Positions 33,421 through 57,542 of a stretch of 57,563 nt of DNA are shown here, piece after piece. The notes beneath the pieces are model-generated. The model was not told where the DNA came from. It worked only from the letters and a program-made list of their open reading frames with translations, and did no database searches. Each line of letters begins with the position of its first letter. The first letter of the stretch is position 1. Both the position numbers and the translations under genes were made by a program. The DNA is from Auritidibacter ignavus (lineage in GTDB: Bacteria; Actinomycetota; Actinomycetes; Actinomycetales; Micrococcaceae): NCBI RefSeq assembly GCF_003703835.1, contig NZ_RDQR01000016.1, positions 1 to 57,563 of the forward strand, in the 5' to 3' direction.

Positions 33421-35337
33421 CTAGCCGTTCAGTCGGGTGGTTTCCTGCCCGAAGCTGTCCAGCACGCTGGCGTTTTCAATGGTTGATGGCGTGTTGTATT
33501 CCTTGCCCTCGACAATGTCACGCATTGTCCGGCGCAGGATCTTGCCCGAACGGGTTTTGGGCAACGCGGAGACGATCTCAACATCTCGGAATGCTGCCAC
33601 CGCGCCAAAGTCTGACCGAACTTTGGCGATCAGCTCTTCGGCCAGTTGATCCTGAGAAATCTCGGCACCATCTGCCAAGACAACGTAGGCTACCGGTTTC
33701 TGACCTTTGAGCTCATCGGCCACCCCGATCACGGCACATTCGGCCACCGCGTCATGTTCTGCCACCAGACCTTCCAAAGTCCCGGTCGACAGCCGGTGTC
33801 CGGCCACGTTAATCACATCGTCCGACCGGCCCAGGACGAAAATGTAACCATCCTCATCGATAAACCCGGTGTCCCCGGTGAGATAGTATCCCGGAAACGT
33901 TTCCAGATACGAGCGCTTAAATCGATCTTCCTCGTTCCAAAGTCCGATCAACGCCCCGGGTGGCAACGGAAGCTTGATGACGATATTGCCTTCCATCCCG
34001 TCAGCCACGGGTTCTCCGGCTGCATCCACGATAGAGACTTGGAATCCGGGCATCGGCACCGTCGGGGAGCCGGGCTTGAATGGGAGCTTTTCCAGGCCAC
34101 GGGGGTTGGCCGCCACCGGCCATCCGGTTTCGGTCTGCCACCAGTGATCGACCACCGGCTTGCCAGTGATCTCGACAATCCAGTGGTAGGTGGCCTCATC
34201 GAGTCGCTCCCCAACCGAGAACACGTTCTCCAGACGAGACAGATCGTATTTCTTCACTTCCTCACCGCGCGGATCTTCTTTCCGGATCGCGCGGAATGCT
34301 GTGGGAGCCGCGTAGAGCATCTTCGCTCCGTATTCTTCCGCGACCCGCCAGAAAGCTCCAGCGTCCGGGGTGCCCACCGGTTTCCCCTCGTAGAGCACGG
34401 TGGATGCCCCGGTGATCAGGGGTCCGTAAATAATATGCGAGTGCCCCACCACCCAGCCGATATCGGAGGCCACAAATGCCACCTCACCGGCATGCAGGTC
34501 GTAGATACGAGGCATCGACCACTCCAACGCGGTGGCGTATCCACCTTGGTCACGCATGACAGCTTTGGGCTTCGAGGTGGTACCCGAGGTGTGAAGCAGG
34601 TACAGCGGGTCACAGGAGGCCACCGGCACGGCCTCCGCGGCGCTAGCCGTGGCGACTGTCTCGTCCCAGTCCAACCATGATGGATCAAAGTCTCGGGCCT
34701 CTTCGTCGAACTGGGGCCGTTTTTTGACAATCACATACTCCGGTTGATGCTCTCCAGATTCGATGGCGGCCTTGATCGGTGGCAAGTACGGGATCTGTTT
34801 CGTGCGCTCGATCCCACCAGACGCCGTGAGCACCACCTTCGGTTGAGTATCGTCCATTCGTGTGGTGATCTCTTTGGCAGCAAAACCGCCGAAGGTCACC
34901 ACATGGATCGCTCCCAAGCGGGCACAAGCCAGCATCGCCACCGCCGCCTCGGGAATCATTGGCATATAGATCAACACTCGGTCACCCCGGGTCACGCCGA
35001 GATCCTGCAGAGCTCCAGCGGTTTGGGCGACCTCCTCCAGCAACTCCTGGTAGGTCACGGCTCGCTTATCCCCGGTGACCGCCGAATCGTAGTAGATCGC
35101 GATTCGATCACCGTGACCGGCAGCAACGTGCCGGTCTAGGGCTTGAACCGTAATGTTGATTTCGCCATCAGGAAACCACCGCCAGTGGAACTCATCGGGT
35201 TGCTCGACTGCGACGCTGGGAGCCTTCTCCCACTGAAGCGACGCTGCGTTCTCCAACCAAAACTGCTCTGGATGGTCTGTGGCGTAGCGGTAGACATCCT
35301 GATAGGTCTGATTCGTCGTAACCTGCTGGTTCATCAC
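33421..35337 (-). CDS. prpE: propionyl-/acetyl-CoA synthetase (PrpE/AcsA-like)
   Basis: A 638-residue acyl-adenylate-forming enzyme that activates a short-chain acid to acyl-CoA with ATP. It shows YLLHTSGTTSKPKAVMRD (P-loop), WWQTETGWP, YYLTGDTGFIDEDGY and the Lys loop KTRSGKILRR, with an N-terminal ACAS domain. The DQGGYA segment after the P-loop is more usual in propionyl-CoA synthetases than in Acs, and the methylcitrate operon lies 15 kb away, so I favour propionate, with acetate possible. The start is GTG 35335-35337 or the next ATG; GGAG lies 5 nt before the GTG. Confidence 0.88.
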   Translation of the reverse strand: MMNQQVTTNQTYQDVYRYATDHPEQFWLENAASLQWEKAPSVAVEQPDEFHWRWFPDGEINITVQALDRHVAAGHGDRIAIYYDSAVTGDKRAVTYQELLEEVAQTAGALQDLGVTRGDRVLIYMPMIPEAAVAMLACARLGAIHVVTFGGFAAKEITTRMDDTQPKVVLTASGGIERTKQIPYLPPIKAAIESGEHQPEYVIVKKRPQFDEEARDFDPSWLDWDETVATASAAEAVPVASCDPLYLLHTSGTTSKPKAVMRDQGGYATALEWSMPRIYDLHAGEVAFVASDIGWVVGHSHIIYGPLITGASTVLYEGKPVGTPDAGAFWRVAEEYGAKMLYAAPTAFRAIRKEDPRGEEVKKYDLSRLENVFSVGERLDEATYHWIVEITGKPVVDHWWQTETGWPVAANPRGLEKLPFKPGSPTVPMPGFQVSIVDAAGEPVADGMEGNIVIKLPLPPGALIGLWNEEDRFKRSYLETFPGYYLTGDTGFIDEDGYIFVLGRSDDVINVAGHRLSTGTLEGLVAEHDAVAECAVIGVADELKGQKPVAYVVLADGAEISQDQLAEELIAKVRSDFGAVAAFRDVEIVSALPKTRSGKILRRTMRDIVEGKEYNTPSTIENASVLDSFGQETTRLNG

Positions 35338-50331: not shown

Positions 50332-51474
50332 TTAGGACAGGTGACGCTCCTGGGGACCGTTGTATTCCGACAGCGGGCGAATCAGCGAGTTATTGGCACG
50401 CTGTTCCATGATGTGGGCGGTCCAACCGGTCAACCGGGCAGCGATGAACAGCGGGGTGAACATCTCGATATCGAAGCCCATCAGGTAGTAGGTAGGCCCC
50501 GCCGGGTAGTCCAGGTTGGGTTTGATATCTTTGGCCTCCGACATGGCGGTTTCCAGCCCGTCGTACAGGCCCATCAGCTCTCCACGACCGTAATAGTCGA
50601 CCATGGCATCCAGGGCCTGTTTCATAGTCGGCACGCGCGAGTCGCCGTTCTTGTACACCCGGTGGCCGAAGCCCATGACCTTCTTCTTGTCGGCCAGGGC
50701 CTGTTCCATCCAGCTCTTGGCCCGCGCGGCGGCCTCTTCGCGGGATTCCTCGGTACGGATGCCGATCTCCTCGAAGGTGTGCATCACGGCCTCGTTCGCC
50801 CCACCGTGGAGCGATCCCTTCAGAGCCCCGATGGCACCGGTGATCGCTGAGTGCATATCGGCCAGGGTGGAGGTGATCACCCGCGCGGTGAAGGTGGAGG
50901 CATTGAAGGAGTGCTCGGCGTAGAGGATCATCGACACTCGGAACGCATCCACGACCTCGGGGGCGGGCTCTTCGCCAAAGGTCGTCCACAAGAAGTTCTC
51001 GGCATAGTTGAGATCATCGCGGGGCTCGATGATCTCCTGACCACGCCGGCGACGCTGATCGTAGGCCACCACGGCCGGGAACGCCACGAAGATCTCTTGA
51101 GCCTTGGCCAGCTCGGTCTCCGGGGAGGAGTCTTCCGAGCGATCGTCGCGGGCACCCAAAACGGAGACGGCGGTCCTGCCAACATCCATCGGATGGCAGT
51201 CGGTGGGCAACAGGTCAATGGCTTCTTTGACCGCTGGGTCCAAGGCCCGATTGGCGCGTTCGAATTCGGTGAAGGCAGCCAGTTCTTCCTCGGTGGGAAG
51301 CTCGCCCGTCCACAGCAACAGTGCTACTTCTTCAAAGGACTTCTCTGCGGCCAACTCCTGGACCGGGTACCCGCGGTAGAGCAGGGAATTAGTCTCAGCG
51401 TTGACCTTGGAGATGGCGGTGTAGTCTGCGACAACTCCGGCCAGTCCTTTCTTGATCTCGGTGTTCTCACTCAT
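50332..51474 (-). CDS. prpC: 2-methylcitrate synthase
   Basis: A 380-residue citrate-synthase-fold enzyme that condenses propionyl-CoA with oxaloacetate. It has the active-site His in EHSFNASTF, the second His in GSLHGGANEAVM, and GFGHRVYKNGDSR before the catalytic Asp region. The short length without the N-terminal extension of GltA, and the position after prpB and prpD, identify it as PrpC. Start ATG 51472-51474 with AAGGAA upstream. Last gene of the operon, followed by two hairpins. Confidence 0.95.
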   Translation of the reverse strand: MSENTEIKKGLAGVVADYTAISKVNAETNSLLYRGYPVQELAAEKSFEEVALLLWTGELPTEEELAAFTEFERANRALDPAVKEAIDLLPTDCHPMDVGRTAVSVLGARDDRSEDSSPETELAKAQEIFVAFPAVVAYDQRRRRGQEIIEPRDDLNYAENFLWTTFGEEPAPEVVDAFRVSMILYAEHSFNASTFTARVITSTLADMHSAITGAIGALKGSLHGGANEAVMHTFEEIGIRTEESREEAAARAKSWMEQALADKKKVMGFGHRVYKNGDSRVPTMKQALDAMVDYYGRGELMGLYDGLETAMSEAKDIKPNLDYPAGPTYYLMGFDIEMFTPLFIAARLTGWTAHIMEQRANNSLIRPLSEYNGPQERHLS

Positions 51475-51521
51475 GGTTGAGAGTATTCCTTCCACATCTA
51501 GTTCCCTCCGCGACCAGGGGT

Positions 51522-52451
51522 CTAGAGGTTCTCAGCGTTCTGTTCAATGTCCAACCCGGGCACCTGGAAGTTGAAAATTCCGGTGTCGAAGGTGTTGTAG
51601 GCCTCGTAGTCCACCAGCTCGTATAGCCTGGCGCGGGTGAGCATCTGGTCCACGGCGGCTTGCTGCGTCCCCGAGGAAGCAATCTCATCCAACACCCGTT
51701 CGGCGGCTCCCATGGCTGAGCGTAGCAGTGTGACCGGGTAGATCACCACTGCGATACCAGCATCAGCCAGCTGCTGGCGGGTGAATAGCTCGGACTTACC
51801 GAACTCGGTCATATTGGCCAGCACCGGGACATCCACGGCCTGGCAGACCTGCTCGAATTCGCTCAGGTCCTTCATCGCCTCCGGGAAGATCGCATCCGCT
51901 CCGGCATCGACCAGTGCCTTGGCCCGATCAATGGCGGTGTTCAGGCCTTCCACGGCCCGAATGTCGGTGCGGGCCATGATCAGGAAGTTCTCATCGATCC
52001 GGGCATCTGCCGCAGCAGCAATGCGTTTGATCATGGTCTCGGTGTCGACTACGTTCTTACCATCTAGGTGTCCGCACCGCTTCGGGTTGAACTGGTCCTC
52101 GATGTGGGCCCCGGCCAGGCCGTTCAGCTCCAACATTTGCACCGTGCGAGCCACGTTCATCGGCTCGCCAAATCCGGTGTCAGCATCCACGATGGTCGGC
52201 AGGTCAGTCATCCGGGCGATCTGCCCGGCGCGGGTAGCCACCTCAGATAGGGTCGTCAGCCCGATATCGGGTAGCCCCAGGTCATTGGCCAGCACCGCGC
52301 CGGAGACGTAGACGCCATCGAAATTCTTTTCGGAGATCAGCTTGGCGCTGAGCGGGTTGAATGCTCCGGGAAACTGCACGGCAGCCCCGGGTTTGAGAAT
52401 CTCCCGCAGGTGTTGGCGTTTCGCTTCGGGGGCGACGGTGGAGTACAGCAT
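51522..52451 (-). CDS. prpB: 2-methylisocitrate lyase
   Basis: A 309-residue isocitrate-lyase-superfamily enzyme that splits 2-methylisocitrate into succinate and pyruvate. The KRCGH active-site loop (NPKRCGHLDGK), the magnesium-binding DADTGFG segment and ARTDIRAVEG are present. It lies between prpD and prpC on the same strand, 49 bp after prpD. A good ribosome binding site (AGGAGAGG) lies about 10 nt before the ATG. Confidence 0.96.
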   Translation of the reverse strand: MLYSTVAPEAKRQHLREILKPGAAVQFPGAFNPLSAKLISEKNFDGVYVSGAVLANDLGLPDIGLTTLSEVATRAGQIARMTDLPTIVDADTGFGEPMNVARTVQMLELNGLAGAHIEDQFNPKRCGHLDGKNVVDTETMIKRIAAAADARIDENFLIMARTDIRAVEGLNTAIDRAKALVDAGADAIFPEAMKDLSEFEQVCQAVDVPVLANMTEFGKSELFTRQQLADAGIAVVIYPVTLLRSAMGAAERVLDEIASSGTQQAAVDQMLTRARLYELVDYEAYNTFDTGIFNFQVPGLDIEQNAENL

Positions 52452-52500: not shown

Positions 52501-54018
52501 CTAGAACAATCCCCGAGGATCATCGGCCGGATTGATCACACCGGCTGTCGCGCGAATGTTGAGCTGTCCCAGCTCACCGGCCGGCAGGTTTTCCAGATCC
52601 TGGACCACCGACAGGAAGCGCTGGATCTCTTCTTCATCCACCACGCCCTCAGCCAGTGCGCGGAACTTGTTGATGTACTGCTCACGACCGAAGGGACGAG
52701 CACCCAGCGGGTGCGCATCGGCCACAGCGATCTCGTCGGTGATCACCGATCCGTCGGTCAGGGTGATGGTGACCGAACCGCCGAAGGCCTTCTCATCCAG
52801 ATCAAGCGAGTGGTACCGACGGGTCCATTCCGGATCTTCTTCGGTGGTGACCTTGTGCCACAGGGCGACGGTGTCTTCACGCCCGGCGCGCTCGGGCGCG
52901 TAGGAATTGACGTGGTGCCAGGTACCATCCTGCAGAGCGACGGTGAAGATATAGGGCACCGAGTGGTCCAGGGTCTCCCGCGATGCGGTGGGATCGTACT
53001 TCTGCGGGTCGTTGGCTCCGGAACCGATCACGTAGTGGGTGTGGTGCGAGGTGGCGATCTTGATCGATTCAACGTTGGCCGGATCGGCCACCTCGGGGTG
53101 CTCGTGGTGCAACTTGCGCGCCAAGTCAATCCAGGCCTGGGCCTGGTATTCGGCTGAGTGCTCCTTGGTGTAGGTATCCAAAATGGCCAGCTTGGCTTCG
53201 CCAGCCTCGGGCAACGGGACGGTGTATTCAGCGTCCGGGCCATCCAGCAACCAAGCGATCACGCCATCCTCGCCTTCGTAGATCGGCACCGGCGAGGTCT
53301 GCCCGCGCAGGGCACGGTCCATGGCCTCCACGGCCATCTTGCCGGCAAAAGCCGGAGCGTGTGCCTTCCAGGTGGAGATCTCACCCTTCCGCGACTGCCG
53401 GGTCGCGGTGGTGGTGTGCAACGCCTGCCCGATGGCCTGGAAAATGGTCTCCACATCGGCCTTGAGTACGGTCCCAATCCCGGCCGCAGCCGAGGGCCCC
53501 AGGTGGGCGACGTGGTCGATCTTGTGAGCGTGCAGACTGATCCCCTTGACCAAATCGACCTGGATCTCGTACCCGGTGGCCAGACCGCGGATCAGATCGT
53601 GGCCGGAAGCTCCCACATGTTCGGCGGCAGCCAGAATCGGCGGGATGTTGTCTCCGGGGTGCGAGTATTCGGCGGCCAGAAACGTGTCATGATAATCCAG
53701 CTCACGCACCGCTACCCCATTGGCCCAGGCAGCCCACTCCGGAGAGGTTTTGGTCTCCACGCCGTAGATCGAGGCACCGGACCCGCCGTGGGAGACCTCG
53801 TGTGTAGTGGCCTGCGACCGAGCGGAGATAATCGGGGCCCGGTTCAGGGAGGCGATGGCGACCGCGGCGTTATCGATGATCCGGTTGATGATCATCTCCC
53901 GCACTTCCTCGGTGACCTCGACCTCATCGGCGGCAACGCGAGCGAGCTGATAAGCCAGTTGCTCTTCTCGGGGCAGGTTCTCTTCGGAGCGGTAAACCCG
54001 TACTGTATGGTCTTTCAT
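52501..54018 (-). CDS. prpD: 2-methylcitrate dehydratase
   Basis: A 505-residue MmgE/PrpD-family enzyme (iron-sulphur-independent) that dehydrates 2-methylcitrate. The family's [30 protein letters not shown] and [10 protein letters not shown] segments, and an all-helical N-terminal domain, are present. Full length for the family. Its ATG overlaps the gntR stop by 4 bp, so it is translated from the regulator's transcript. Confidence 0.95.
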
Positions 54019-54707
54019 GATGTTCTGTCACATGTCCTTTCATGATCTGCCGCAATGGCGGCGTTGAATGCGGGGGTCAGGGCGTGGTCAAGAATGTGTC
54101 GGAGGGCGTGGTGCAGATGGAGGGTGGTCGCGGCTTGGGCAACATCGGGATCACCGTTGGCCACGGCCCGGGCGATCTCTGCGTGTTCGGAAGCTGAGGC
54201 GCGCAACCGGTCCGGATCATCTTGGGCCATCAGTCGCACCCGTTGCAGGTGGATCCGCAGATTTCTCACCGCGGCGGTGATATATGAGTTCTGCCCGGCC
54301 TGGTCGAGCCGGTCATCAAGCTGGGACACCAGCTGATAATAGGGTTCGGATTCCAGTGTGTGTCGCCGGGCAGCGTTCTCAAAAGCTTCGGCCAACTCCA
54401 CGAACGGCTCACGGTGCATCTGATCAGCACTCGCGGCGGCTCGGGCGATCGCTGTTTCGAGCAACCGGCGCAACTCGAACATGTGACGCACTTCCGGCAA
54501 CGAAACATCGGAGACCGTGGTGGCTCGAGTCCCCTGCTGGGTGGCCAAGCCGTCAGCGACCAGCCGGGCAATGGCTTCTCGCACCGGTGTGCGGGATACA
54601 CCGAGTCGCTCCGAGAGTTCTACTTCAGCCAGTACCTTTCCCGGGGCTAAGGTCCAATGGATGATGTCATCCCGAAGTGTTTCGTAAGCTAGGTCACTTG
54701 CTCTCAC
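54015..54707 (-). CDS. GntR-family regulator of the methylcitrate operon
   Basis: A 230-residue FCD-type GntR regulator: winged helix at residues about 3-70 ([33 protein letters not shown]) and an all-helical FCD ligand domain with metal-site His residues near the end ([24 protein letters not shown]). I start at GTG 54705-54707: the family's helix begins there, and an operator and -10 box lie just upstream, so the longer frame is not likely to be real. It overlaps prpD, heading the gntR-prpD-prpB-prpC operon. A propionate- or methylcitrate-derived ligand is inferred. Confidence 0.9.
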
Positions 54708-54716
54708 ATCACCCCA

Positions 54717-54726
54717 GTGTATACAC
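54717..54726. promoter_or_regulatory. GntR operator 1 over the -10 box of the prp operon
   Basis: GTGTATACAC is a perfect palindrome containing TGTATACA, the usual FCD-GntR core (TNGTNNNACNA). It overlaps the -10 box TACACT (54716-54721, minus), which lies 8 nt before the gntR GTG, so a bound repressor would block RNA polymerase. Confidence 0.65.
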
Positions 54727-54788
54727 AGTCGTGCTCGAGATCGATACCTCATGGCACTTTTCCCAAACATCAGCCAGCGCCCCACGGT

Positions 54789-54802
54789 CGATGTATACAT
54801 CG
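54789..54802. promoter_or_regulatory. GntR operator 2
   Basis: CGATGTATACATCG is a perfect 14-bp palindrome with the same TGTATACA core. Its centre is 74 bp from that of operator 1, close to seven helical turns, so the two sites lie on the same face of the DNA. Confidence 0.65.
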
Positions 54803-54944
54803 GGGATCGGGGTGGATGAGGATGAGGACGATGGCCAGATGGCCACTGGATAGTTGGACTGTCTCCCGGGGCATAGCAAACTGCCCAGATAAATGGTCGG
54901 CTTCCTGGTTTTCTCGTCCGCGGCAAGGGAGGGGGTGCTTTCCC

Positions 54945-55518
54945 TCATGGCTGAGTCTTCAAGGTCGTCATGGGTGCCTGGTCGTTATGCGTGAAGGACT
55001 CGCCGTCGGTCACCACGAAGGATTCCTGATCGGGCAGGTCCCACACATCCAGCGGCTCGATGGTGGTCTCGTCCTGCTCCATTCACCCTCATATTTGTCA
55101 GTGTTAACCCCATCGATTCGAGCTTCGATCCCAGCGACCACATCACCGATCAGCTCCCGGTATAGCCCTGGTCGAACTCCACGGTTGCTACGGCCGAGGG
55201 ATCGGGGATATCTACACTCACGGTAACGGTGACATCACCGCCCCACGAGGAGTCGTTTGTGCTTTCAGACCCGTGAAACACAGAGATTCCAGGCAAGGGG
55301 CCCAAAGGGTTCCAGGCAAGGCAGACATCACCACCGGTGGGGGCCCGTATCGAGTGGTCCAGGTCCTCGGCGGCGGTTTGGAGGTACGCTTCGGTTGTGG
55401 AAGTGCTCGTCCAGTCATCAAACACCACGCCCCGCTGACCAGCGGTGGCGAGTTCAAACGTGACCGTGTGCTCCCGTCCGCCCTGGGTCAAAACCGCCTC
55501 CACAGGAATGTGGTGCAT
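54945..55518 (-). pseudogene. decayed paralogue of the exported protein at 56268-57542
   Basis: The minus strand encodes pieces similar to the downstream protein: VEAVLTQGGRE matches VEAFLTQDGRE, VVFDDW matches VLFDDW, ELIGDVVAGIEARI matches QLIEDVVADVESRL, and QESFVVTDGESF matches EALSVVVDGDSL. The frame shifts near 55160 and again near 55083, and about 75 residues of the middle are missing. The N-terminal third is replaced at 55516 by an ISL3-type remnant. It ends at the stop at 54945. Confidence 0.6.
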
Positions 55519-55870
55519 CGTATTTGGGGTGTGGGAGGGGCCTGAAGTTACCGGTTTCGTGATGGCTTCGCCCGGTCCGTTGGGCGTTGGTGGGCGGGTG
55601 AAGAATGCGAGTATGTTTTCTGTTCGGGGTTTGCGTGTTCGTCCGAGTCGTTTGAGCTCCTCCAGTCATCGGCGACTGGATCGTATGGGCCGGAGATGAC
55701 TTTGTGTAACAGCGTTGTGCCGTCGCCTCTCTCGGGTGCTGTAGGCGGTGACGATGTCCTGGTAGAGCCCCCAGGTCACGTCGACAACGGTGAAGCCTGG
55801 GTTAGCCAACAGGTTCATGATTGCTTCCTGTTCCGTTGTTGTGATGGGGGCTTGGGCAGAGGGTGCCTGT
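55516..55870 (-). pseudogene. ISL3-family transposase C-terminal remnant (left, minus strand)
   Basis: The minus strand holds VTWGLYQDIVTAY (55741-55780), then in another frame LEELKRLGRTRKPRTENILA and FFTRPPTPNGPGEAI, and finally ETGNFRPLPHP. These match, in order, the C-terminal part of actinobacterial ISL3 transposases (TWGIYQ, LKRLGRT, NGPTEAI, ETGGFRP). Stops, frameshifts and loss of the segment between GEAI and ETG show that it is dead. Confidence 0.6.
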
Positions 55871-55984
55871 CAGCAGGGTCTTATCTGCCCGGTGCAGCGG
55901 GCCAGCGGGTTGTCGGGTTGCTGGGTTGTCGGGCGGGCCACGACGGACAGTCGTCTGATGCTGAATCCCACACCGTGAGGGATC

Positions 55985-56100
55985 AACCGAGCAGAGGACA
56001 TACTGGCATTTTTCACCCGCCCACTAACGCCCAACGGGCCGGCCTAAGCCCCCCACGAAACCGGAGGCTTCAGACGTCTCCCACACCCTCGAATACGATG
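55985..56100 (+). pseudogene. ISL3-family transposase C-terminal remnant (right, plus strand)
   Basis: An inverted near-copy of the end of the left remnant: EDILAFFTRPLTPNGPA, a stop, then HETGGFRRLPHP. It shares with the left copy the missing stretch between NGP and ETG, so both come from one already deleted ancestor. Confidence 0.55.
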
Positions 56101-56191
56101 AGCCCCTACATGCGATGAACCTGTTGTCGTCAGCAGGCGCAGTAATCGATTCGCGCGTTATTCCTGTGAACGGATACCTTCGGCCGACGTT

Positions 56192-56220
56192 TTCAGCAAT
56201 AGTCACGACAGATTGCTGAA
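56192..56220. terminator. hairpin downstream of the exported protein gene
   Basis: TTCAGCAAT (56192-56200) pairs perfectly with ATTGCTGAA (56212-56220), 11-nt loop, 48 bp beyond the stop of the leftward gene at 56268. No T-tract. Confidence 0.35.
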
Positions 56221-56267
56221 TACGTTGCCGGGATCATTTCTGATCGTTCCCCCGATAGGTCGAACTA

Positions 56268-57542
56268 CTATGTCTCATCCGGCCCATCCTCACCATTGGA
56301 TGGCTCAGCGGGAGAATCATAGTTACTGTAGGTGTCACTCTTGACATTCGAGGGGTTCATCTCTCGCAAGGAAGAGTAATCAACACTCAAGGAATCACCA
56401 TCCACCACAACTGAAAGCGCCTCATCCGTTACACTCAGTGGGGTGAATAGATTGAGGGTGGTGGAACTCTCTTCCCAGTCTTCGTCACCCTCATCACGGT
56501 ATTCGTACTCGATCTCAAGCTCCGCGTCGACGGTGACAAACAAGTCGCCAGTAAGCTCCTCGGCAGGAACCTGATCATCGCCTAAGCTATACCCTGAGTC
56601 GTTATCGGAGTTCAACCGGATCGTGGGACCTTCGCTCCAGTTACGCGAGACAATGCGGGTGGCCTCGTAGATGGTTGACTCATAGGAAACTGCCTCACAT
56701 TCAGGCACCACAATCACGTTCTCATTGGTCACGCAGGAAGCCAATCTGGATTCGACGTCAGCGACCACATCCTCGATCAGCTGATCGGTGTATTGCTGTT
56801 CAAAGTGTACGATTTCAGCGGCTGTCGGATCTGATGTCTCCGCAGTGACGGTGATGGAAATATCATCACCGTAGAAGACATAGGTGCTACCTTCAGGCGC
56901 CTGGAAAGTATAGGTACCGGGGAGGGCCGGCATCATACCTGGTTCATCTAGGCTGGGGACGTCGACATCACCATCCTGGGGTTCATCCGAAAAGTAGTCC
57001 GAGTCCTCCGGGCTGGGTCCCTCGGAAATCTCCGTTCCTTCTGTCGCAGGTGACAGCTCAGTCTCTACACCGTTAACTTCCAGCGTAGAGGGGCCCTGGC
57101 TCATGTAGACGTAACTCCACGGTGCAGAGGTTATCCTCCAGTCGTCGAAGAGGACTGCCTGGTTACCCTCGGCGGTCAGTTCCACAGTGATCGGATATTC
57201 CCGGCCGTCCTGAGTCAAAAACGCTTCGACCGTGACATTCCCAGCATCGTCTTGTTCACCAACCTCACCGATGCGGTATTCGGTAGGACGATTCTCGACT
57301 GCCGCATAAACTTCATCATTCAGCAGGCCTCGCCGATCATTAGTCACATTCGGGTCGGCCAGTTCCACCGCGGTCGAGGCTTCACCGTCTACCACGGCTT
57401 GCAAGTATTCCTCCACTTTCTTATCGGGCCCAAAGGGGCTCTTCACAATCGAGGGTGTAGACGGGGGTCTCGGGGAAGTGGCGCGTCGATAGCTGGATAG
57501 AGGTCGAGGCCTTCCGATGATGGAAGTTCCTACACAAGCCAT
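56268..57542 (-). CDS. exported or surface protein of unknown function, N-terminus doubtful
   Basis: A 424-residue acidic protein. From about residue 35 it reads as a normal domain (KKVEEYLQAVVDGEAS, VTVEAFLTQDGRE, VLFDDW), similar to actinobacterial secreted proteins with a DUF4878-like start, followed by Asp/Glu/Pro-rich linkers, a central beta-rich domain with two cysteines (ASCVTNE, VPECEA) and a C-terminal beta domain. The first 30 residues have no signal peptide or membrane helix and look like read-through of unrelated DNA, so the true N-terminus was probably lost or lies beyond a disruption near 57480. Confidence 0.6.
   Translation of the reverse strand: MACVGTSIIGRPRPLSSYRRATSPRPPSTPSIVKSPFGPDKKVEEYLQAVVDGEASTAVELADPNVTNDRRGLLNDEVYAAVENRPTEYRIGEVGEQDDAGNVTVEAFLTQDGREYPITVELTAEGNQAVLFDDWRITSAPWSYVYMSQGPSTLEVNGVETELSPATEGTEISEGPSPEDSDYFSDEPQDGDVDVPSLDEPGMMPALPGTYTFQAPEGSTYVFYGDDISITVTAETSDPTAAEIVHFEQQYTDQLIEDVVADVESRLASCVTNENVIVVPECEAVSYESTIYEATRIVSRNWSEGPTIRLNSDNDSGYSLGDDQVPAEELTGDLFVTVDAELEIEYEYRDEGDEDWEESSTTLNLFTPLSVTDEALSVVVDGDSLSVDYSSLREMNPSNVKSDTYSNYDSPAEPSNGEDGPDET

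Follow-up and report, generated by a model that had tools for sequence, protein, structure and literature searches.

Paired operators spaced by whole helical turns ahead of gntR-prpDBC suggest cooperative repression by an FCD-family GntR regulator in actinobacteria

Two copies of a short palindrome, separated by close to a whole number of helical turns, lie ahead of the gntR-prpDBC operon of Auritidibacter ignavus and ahead of the same genes in many other actinobacteria. There is no reasonable doubt about this sequence pattern: the paired sites are genuine, conserved and in phase. Paired sites, quantised spacing, the overlap of one site with the -10 box and, in a few lineages, matching changes at both sites can be read directly from the genomes. 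The explanation that we consider probable is that GntR represses gntR-prpDBC by binding both sites cooperatively, probably with the intervening DNA looped, and same-face cooperative binding by an FCD-family GntR protein is strongly favoured by these comparisons.

The window (the whole stretch of A. ignavus DNA analysed, 57,563 nt) carries GTGTATACAC at 54717-54726 and CGATGTATACATCG at 54789-54802. The initial annotation had presented them as two palindromes with the same core, and this description is exact: the octamer TGTATACA occupies 54718-54725 and 54792-54799, without any further copy in the window, and the distance from centre to centre is 74 bp, or seven turns. These two occurrences compare with 0.17 expected, and two were reached in 2 of 100 shuffles. 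The 2.59 Mb genome holds only seven copies of the octamer, two of them ahead of gntR-prpDBC. No clear target emerged from a regulon search over the other five exact copies in the source genome: two, on C48 and on C1 near 268680, lie inside frames resembling, by eye, a CitE-type lyase and ribosomal protein L20, and the three on C1 near 93776, on C35 and on C50 were inspected only roughly.

The genes concerned are all encoded on the minus strand. The gntR gene (54015-54707 including the stop codon) encodes a 230 aa regulator, the proposed repressor acting on both operators, and is followed by prpD (2-methylcitrate dehydratase, 52501-54018; NF042438 at 852.6 bits, below the cut-off of 950), prpB (methylisocitrate lyase, 51522-52451; TIGR02317 above cut-off) and prpC (2-methylcitrate synthase, 50332-51495; NF010636 and TIGR01800 above cut-off). 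As had been annotated, the regulator is the first gene and overlaps prpD, gntR ending at 54015 and prpD starting at 54018 (4 nt shared). The best start of gntR is GTG 54707-54705: when the gene is read from there, the strongest matches to orthologues open at its residue 1 or 2. With this start, the proximal octamer begins 18 nt further upstream, and the gntR message would be nearly leaderless. The candidate proximal operator (54717-54726) overlaps the inferred -10 box TACACT (minus strand) of the gntR-prpDBC promoter; it is separated by the spacer (54727-54788, minus strand) from the candidate distal operator (54789-54802), 74 bp upstream. A generic sigma-70 scan of positions 54600-55150 found no promoter, so the promoter in the window rests on the cross-species profile described below. 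Further upstream of the operators, on the minus strand at 55150-57542, comparison by eye shows similar words in two frames of 122 aa and 424 aa, perhaps a duplicated protein of which one copy was shortened.

The regulator combines an N-terminal GntR winged helix (PF00392, 60 bits, 1.8e-16) and a C-terminal FCD domain (PF07729, 62.1 bits, 8.9e-17), both above cut-off, and TGTATACA at the two candidate sites has the GT..AC palindromic form of FCD-type operators. Its AlphaFold2 monomer model (pLDDT 93.7, pTM 0.85) gave PmiR of Pseudomonas aeruginosa (7xp1) as best Foldseek match (E 2.1e-9, TMq 0.74, 25% identity), and the PmiR structures 7xp0/7xp1 were also the best phmmer match; structures of TM0439 and Atu1419 appeared among the top 20 Foldseek matches. 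From this PmiR-like fold, the repression of prp genes by PrpR, the tetramer of Atu1419 and the looping proposed for it, our best guess, drawn from a predicted model and by analogy, is a dimer-of-dimers repressor with a methylcitrate-type effector.

The initial annotation had proposed a search of related genomes for both palindromes. A first search covered 99 genomes, including the window's own, and gave a GntR match in 94 of them (E up to 0.001, paralogues included). Among the best 30 matches examined as loci, two palindromes stand ahead of the gene in all 30, as an exact pair in 28 and as TGTATACG twice in L034 and L040, and the next frame downstream begins like PrpD, as judged by eye, in 30/30. 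A contig scan then widened the comparison to the best 80 loci, of which the closest was that of Candidatus Yaniella excrementavium and which include Arthrobacter, Paeniglutamicibacter, Kocuria, Rothia, Microbacterium, Salinibacterium, Leucobacter, Demequina, Georgenia and others; at least two sites (at most one mismatch) occur within 400 nt upstream in 76 of them and one site in L057, L096, L103 and L106. The pair is thus kept ahead of gntR-prpD in many actinobacterial genera, and the absence from relatives that would have spoken against the initial annotation was not found. Nor is a GntR-led prp operon an oddity in this group, where the arrangement is common: a PrpD match follows gntR in 207 of 210 loci, duplicates included (misses in L152, L156 and L194).

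Several genomes call for separate mention. In two single genomes of genus g10, exact pairs occur at several separate positions, four in G403 (L193-L196) and two in G420 (L191, L192), which suggests several gntR-prp copies or a mixed assembly. Three entries titled Vibrio cholerae, Stenotrophomonas maltophilia and Acidobacteria MAG (L056, L119 and L121) carry an actinobacterial-type GntR gene with phased sites and are probably contaminating or misbinned contigs. A contig of Mycolicibacterium agri (L122) has a GntR-type locus with a 74 bp gap and the distal site CGTATACA; Mycolicibacterium usually has another PrpR, and horizontal transfer into this genus is possible.

Spacing was analysed in a merged set made of the first loci and 100 further stretches (210 loci; 200 after 10 duplicate proteins were dropped), with at most one mismatch allowed in each site within 450 nt upstream of gntR. 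Exactly two sites were found in 189 of the 200 distinct GntR orthologue loci, and their spacings fall into narrow classes: 51 (2 loci), 52 (52) and 53 bp (7) at five turns; 62 (27), 63 (71) and 64 bp (7) at six; 72 (1), 73 (3), 74 (11), 75 (2) and 76 bp (1) at seven; 83 (1) and 84 bp (1) at eight; and finally 97, 147 and 157 bp (1 each), about 9, 14 and 15 turns, these three loci being the whole basis for gaps above eight turns. Five of the 11 remaining loci carry further sites in addition to an in-phase pair (L022, L036, L108, L123 and L154), and the other six (L057, L096, L103, L106, L146 and L152) have a weak partner or a weak pair with two mismatches at 52-53 bp, a level at which chance matches are commoner. 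Since L157-L224 were chosen by the exact-pair pattern, the presence of a pair is biased there, whereas phase within 49-79 bp is not. Without these pattern-selected loci, 126 pairs give a best period of 10.65 bp (R 0.94) with class means of 52.1, 63.0, 73.9 and 83.5 bp. When each distinct spacing is counted once, the phase R is 0.77, with a simulated p of 5e-5 (1/20,000).

An exact pair spaced 49-79 bp was present in 336 of 395 family genomes, counting exact matches at any genome position (G037 and G234 have two pairs each), and none of the 395 had an exact pair spaced 54-61 bp or 65-71 bp; a reversed-pattern control gave 0 among the genomes listed. A later set drawn from 297 genomes of the order (E 1e-40) yielded 69 matches, 25 of them already in the first set, so that 44 loci were used, 39 of them distinct. 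All 27 single-pair loci of this set are in phase (52 bp in 15, 62 in 3, 63 in 4, 64 in 3, and 73 and 84 bp). Among the other 12, L273 combines a 63 bp pair with a third site and 11 have no pair by the rule: L267 lies at a contig end (21 nt upstream), L266 has a partner with two mismatches at 52 bp, and variant sites are carried by L290 (GGTATACC twice, 52 bp), L283 (TGCATGCA twice, 64 bp) and seven genomes of the genus labelled f14/g45. Over both sets, 214 of 216 pairs lie at most 2 bp from n x 10.5 bp, mostly with n = 5, 6 or 7, which bears out the same-face spacing originally noted in a single genome; the two off-register exceptions, 97 bp (L018) and one 76 bp, each miss register by 2.5 bp at 10.5 bp per turn. 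In the 116 loci with a leader, the spacing between proximal site and start codon is far less periodic, having an R of 0.29 (0.10 for distinct values) vs 0.94 (0.79) for the gap, and this 0.29 may come from 56 loci that share distances of 38-41 nt.

On a FastTree tree of 188 regulators, from which the partial protein L194 was left out, the number of turns changes at least 31 times (mean of 72 with shuffled labels). The 28 edge-disjoint, phylogenetically independent pairs of species that differ by more than 2 bp do so by 9 (2 pairs), 10 (4), 11 (17), 12 (1), 22 (2), 84 (1) and 93 bp (1), with no difference of 3-8 or 13-21 bp among them; one such pair opposes the window (74 bp) to L016 (63 bp), a same-family genome near Yaniella in gntR. 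The tree also requires 66 changes of exact spacing vs 31 of turn number. A mutational habit of 11 bp steps was considered as the source of the pattern and is unlikely, because 1 bp changes do occur yet do not accumulate.

The two sites seem to have different roles. The initial annotation had placed the -10 box under the proximal palindrome, and the cross-species profile points the same way: a T two bases past the octamer (TAnnnT) is present in 170 of 188 readable proximal sites vs 31 of 189 distal ones. The distal profile over 189 loci is T.TGTATACA.A, with A at this position in 126. As the T is mostly proximal, the proximal site doubles as the -10 box and the distal site looks like a pure operator; a second -10 box at the distal site was rejected on the same counts. 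Most loci belong either to a leaderless class (69 loci, Shine-Dalgarno-like words in 2) or to a leadered class (116 loci, such words in 98).

A divergent propionate/acetate-CoA ligase gene lies beside the distal site in about half of the loci (96/189), and in the profile of these 96 the word CTTGT, likely the -35 element of the ligase gene, adjoins the site. No ligase was detected within 1 kb in the other 93 loci, the window included, where CTTGT is absent and the phased pair is kept; since the upstream sequence ends at about 500 nt in some of them, a few ligases may have escaped detection. The ligase is absent from 60 of 61 loci with five-turn gaps and present in 95 of 128 with longer ones. 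The nearest models to the ligases of L046 and L111 are propionate-CoA ligase models, below their cut-offs. In the window, the distal operator is present without an adjoining ligase, and a homologue 57% identical to the L046 ligase, itself divergent from gntR, lies about 19 kb from the operators (matched part 33454-35310, minus strand). A motif search found no spacer element conserved across the group, and TGGGCAA or its complement, a CTGGGCAA-like word, occurs in 15 of 189 spacers. The CTGGGCAA word or its complement stands between the operators in some genomes of genus g10 (L165, L192 and L198) and may be the site of a second regulator.

Which of the two phases matters is a question on which the nine f14/g45 genomes bear. 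In seven of them TGCATGCA occupies both sites, at positions -51 or -52 and +1 from the start codon chosen by the script, with a gap of 52-53 bp. By eye, the promoter inferred in all seven reads TTGACG, 17 nt, nAnnGT, 6 nt, start codon, so that the proximal operator covers the inferred start rather than the -10 box, the pair being 17 bp (about 1.6 turns) downstream of its usual place. Since the pair has shifted relative to the promoter and the five-turn gap is unchanged, phase seems to be held between the operators. This favours protein contact between operators over contact between a distal protein and RNA polymerase, on the strength of an inferred promoter in one genus. The other two genomes have the usual leadered layout, L283 with its 64 bp pair of TGCATGCA and L152 with a weak pair at 53 bp. 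In the seven genomes (L275, L279, L282, L284, L287, L289 and L293), the proximal TGCATGCA also overlaps the start and first codons (M/V-H-A-Q), so operator and coding sequence share letters. Both sites of L290 have likewise changed together; nevertheless, departures at one site only are commoner than matching two-site changes, for instance TGTATACG/TGTATACA in 16 loci.

We propose the following model, in which the binding, the loop, the repression and the effector are what we infer from these patterns. GntR would autoregulate as a repressor of gntR-prpDBC. One dimer on the proximal palindrome, over the -10 box, would block RNA polymerase, and a second would sit on the distal palindrome on the same helix face. 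The dimers would be joined, either in a dimer of dimers or by a bridging contact, with the intervening DNA bent or looped, and the -10 box would thereby be occupied more often when the protein is scarce. Such contact needs rotational register, so the gap would evolve by whole turns (usually 5 to 8, rarely 9, 14 or 15). During propionate use, 2-methylcitrate or 2-methylisocitrate would bind the FCD domain, the complex would open and the operon would be expressed. The gaps found most often, 52 and 63 bp, leave very little room for a loop, so a closed loop and a side-by-side assembly on bent DNA are equally possible.

Other readings of the pair were weighed. The distal palindrome could be an activator site from which liganded GntR touches RNA polymerase (class I), phase being kept with the promoter; we consider this unlikely. 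In most species the -10 box coincides with the proximal site, which makes operator-operator and operator-promoter phase inseparable there, and the inferred distal positions (about -64 to -97) are ones that we take to resemble class I activator sites. However, the promoter inferred for the seven f14/g45 genomes breaks this coincidence, the operators there being out of the usual promoter phase with the gap preserved, and gaps of 147 and 157 bp seem too long for class I contact.

The position of CTTGT, the likely ligase -35 element, beside the distal site speaks for an assignment of the sites to separate genes, the proximal one serving gntR-prpDBC and the distal one the divergent ligase, but independent sites require no helical register and the 93 pairs without a detectable ligase within 1 kb keep the distal site in phase, so that we judge this very improbable. 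We give similarly little credence to a third partner, such as a nucleoid protein or RNA polymerase wrapped in the intervening DNA, that would set the whole turns without the GntR dimers touching: two dimers alone could hardly close the shortest gaps and some spacers do contain the CTGGGCAA-like word, yet no spacer element is conserved across the group and such a partner would need to accommodate anything from 5 to 15 turns.

In the better-studied actinobacteria Corynebacterium and Mycobacterium, prp genes are also controlled by a regulator, PrpR, which belongs to another protein family than GntR. PmiR/PrpR of P. aeruginosa (PA0797, which we take to be the same protein as PmiR) is, like the window's regulator, an FCD-type GntR protein tied to prp genes, and Cui et al. 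in 2022 reportedly found 2-methylisocitrate to be the PmiR signal. In P. aeruginosa, PrpR acts as a repressor of the prp operon and also binds ahead of its own gene. A single 12-nt palindrome, ATTGTCGACAAT, is predicted as its motif, vs TGTATACA here, and the sections consulted of that article describe no phased pair (PMC9765439). M. tuberculosis PrpR, for its part, is a 4Fe4S protein using propionyl-CoA (PMC9765439). By analogy, the window's regulator may work like PmiR; the operator ATTGTCGACAAT was not found at its sites, and we make no claim of orthology.

Atu1419 of Agrobacterium fabrum (VanR group of FCD) binds ATGTATACAT as a tetramer, with DNA looping proposed between two sites; this sequence shares its core with the window operators and one of the sites covers the -10 box, whereas the pathway is that of hydroxycinnamic acids, the sites are 190 bp apart and the passages available give no cross-species spacing series (PMC7797058). 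The identity between Atu1419 and the window's regulator is 21-22% in structural alignments. In BusR, a c-di-AMP-responsive member of the GntR family, a tetramer reads two same-face sites and adding 5 bp abolishes binding, but it acts as a rigid ruler with one fixed 22 bp gap, since removing 10 bp also fails (PMC8517857). The several whole-turn gaps found here fit bendable DNA better than such a ruler. Suvorova et al. (2015) read near-constant distances in GntR-family double operators as cooperative; section 16 of that article leaves helical quantisation unmentioned, and the word "turn" was found only in helix-turn-helix phrases and reference titles (PMC4494728). Repression by LacI oscillates with operator spacing, with loops of 6-8 turns in E. 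coli, the spacings being engineered vs the natural series here (PMC5081198).

Searches of the open-licence PMC literature, which are weak evidence of absence, showed no title or opening of an abstract that deals with operators of this kind at whole-turn spacings or with a GntR protein controlling prp in these genera. The type of system is known, and GntR repression of prp has already been shown in P. aeruginosa; what we did not find described is the natural whole-turn series. Most of what is known about operators in helical phase comes from engineered spacers. We put at about even chances a stronger view, that this is a natural promoter family with repressor-bridged micro-loops down to five turns (52 bp) in which register itself is selected, with about thirty independent whole-turn jumps, almost no intermediates and a free spacer sequence. 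If true, it would be a natural helical-phasing experiment and would give an in vivo estimate of the helical repeat of about 10.5-10.65 bp in actinobacteria. The whole-turn series itself, selected in several hundred species and provided with internal controls, predicts dimer-dimer contact in an FCD GntR regulator, and its gaps, from 5 to 15 turns, offer natural material for measuring DNA bending in these bacteria. For Arthrobacter, Microbacterium and their relatives, it points to a GntR-based control rule for propionate metabolism.
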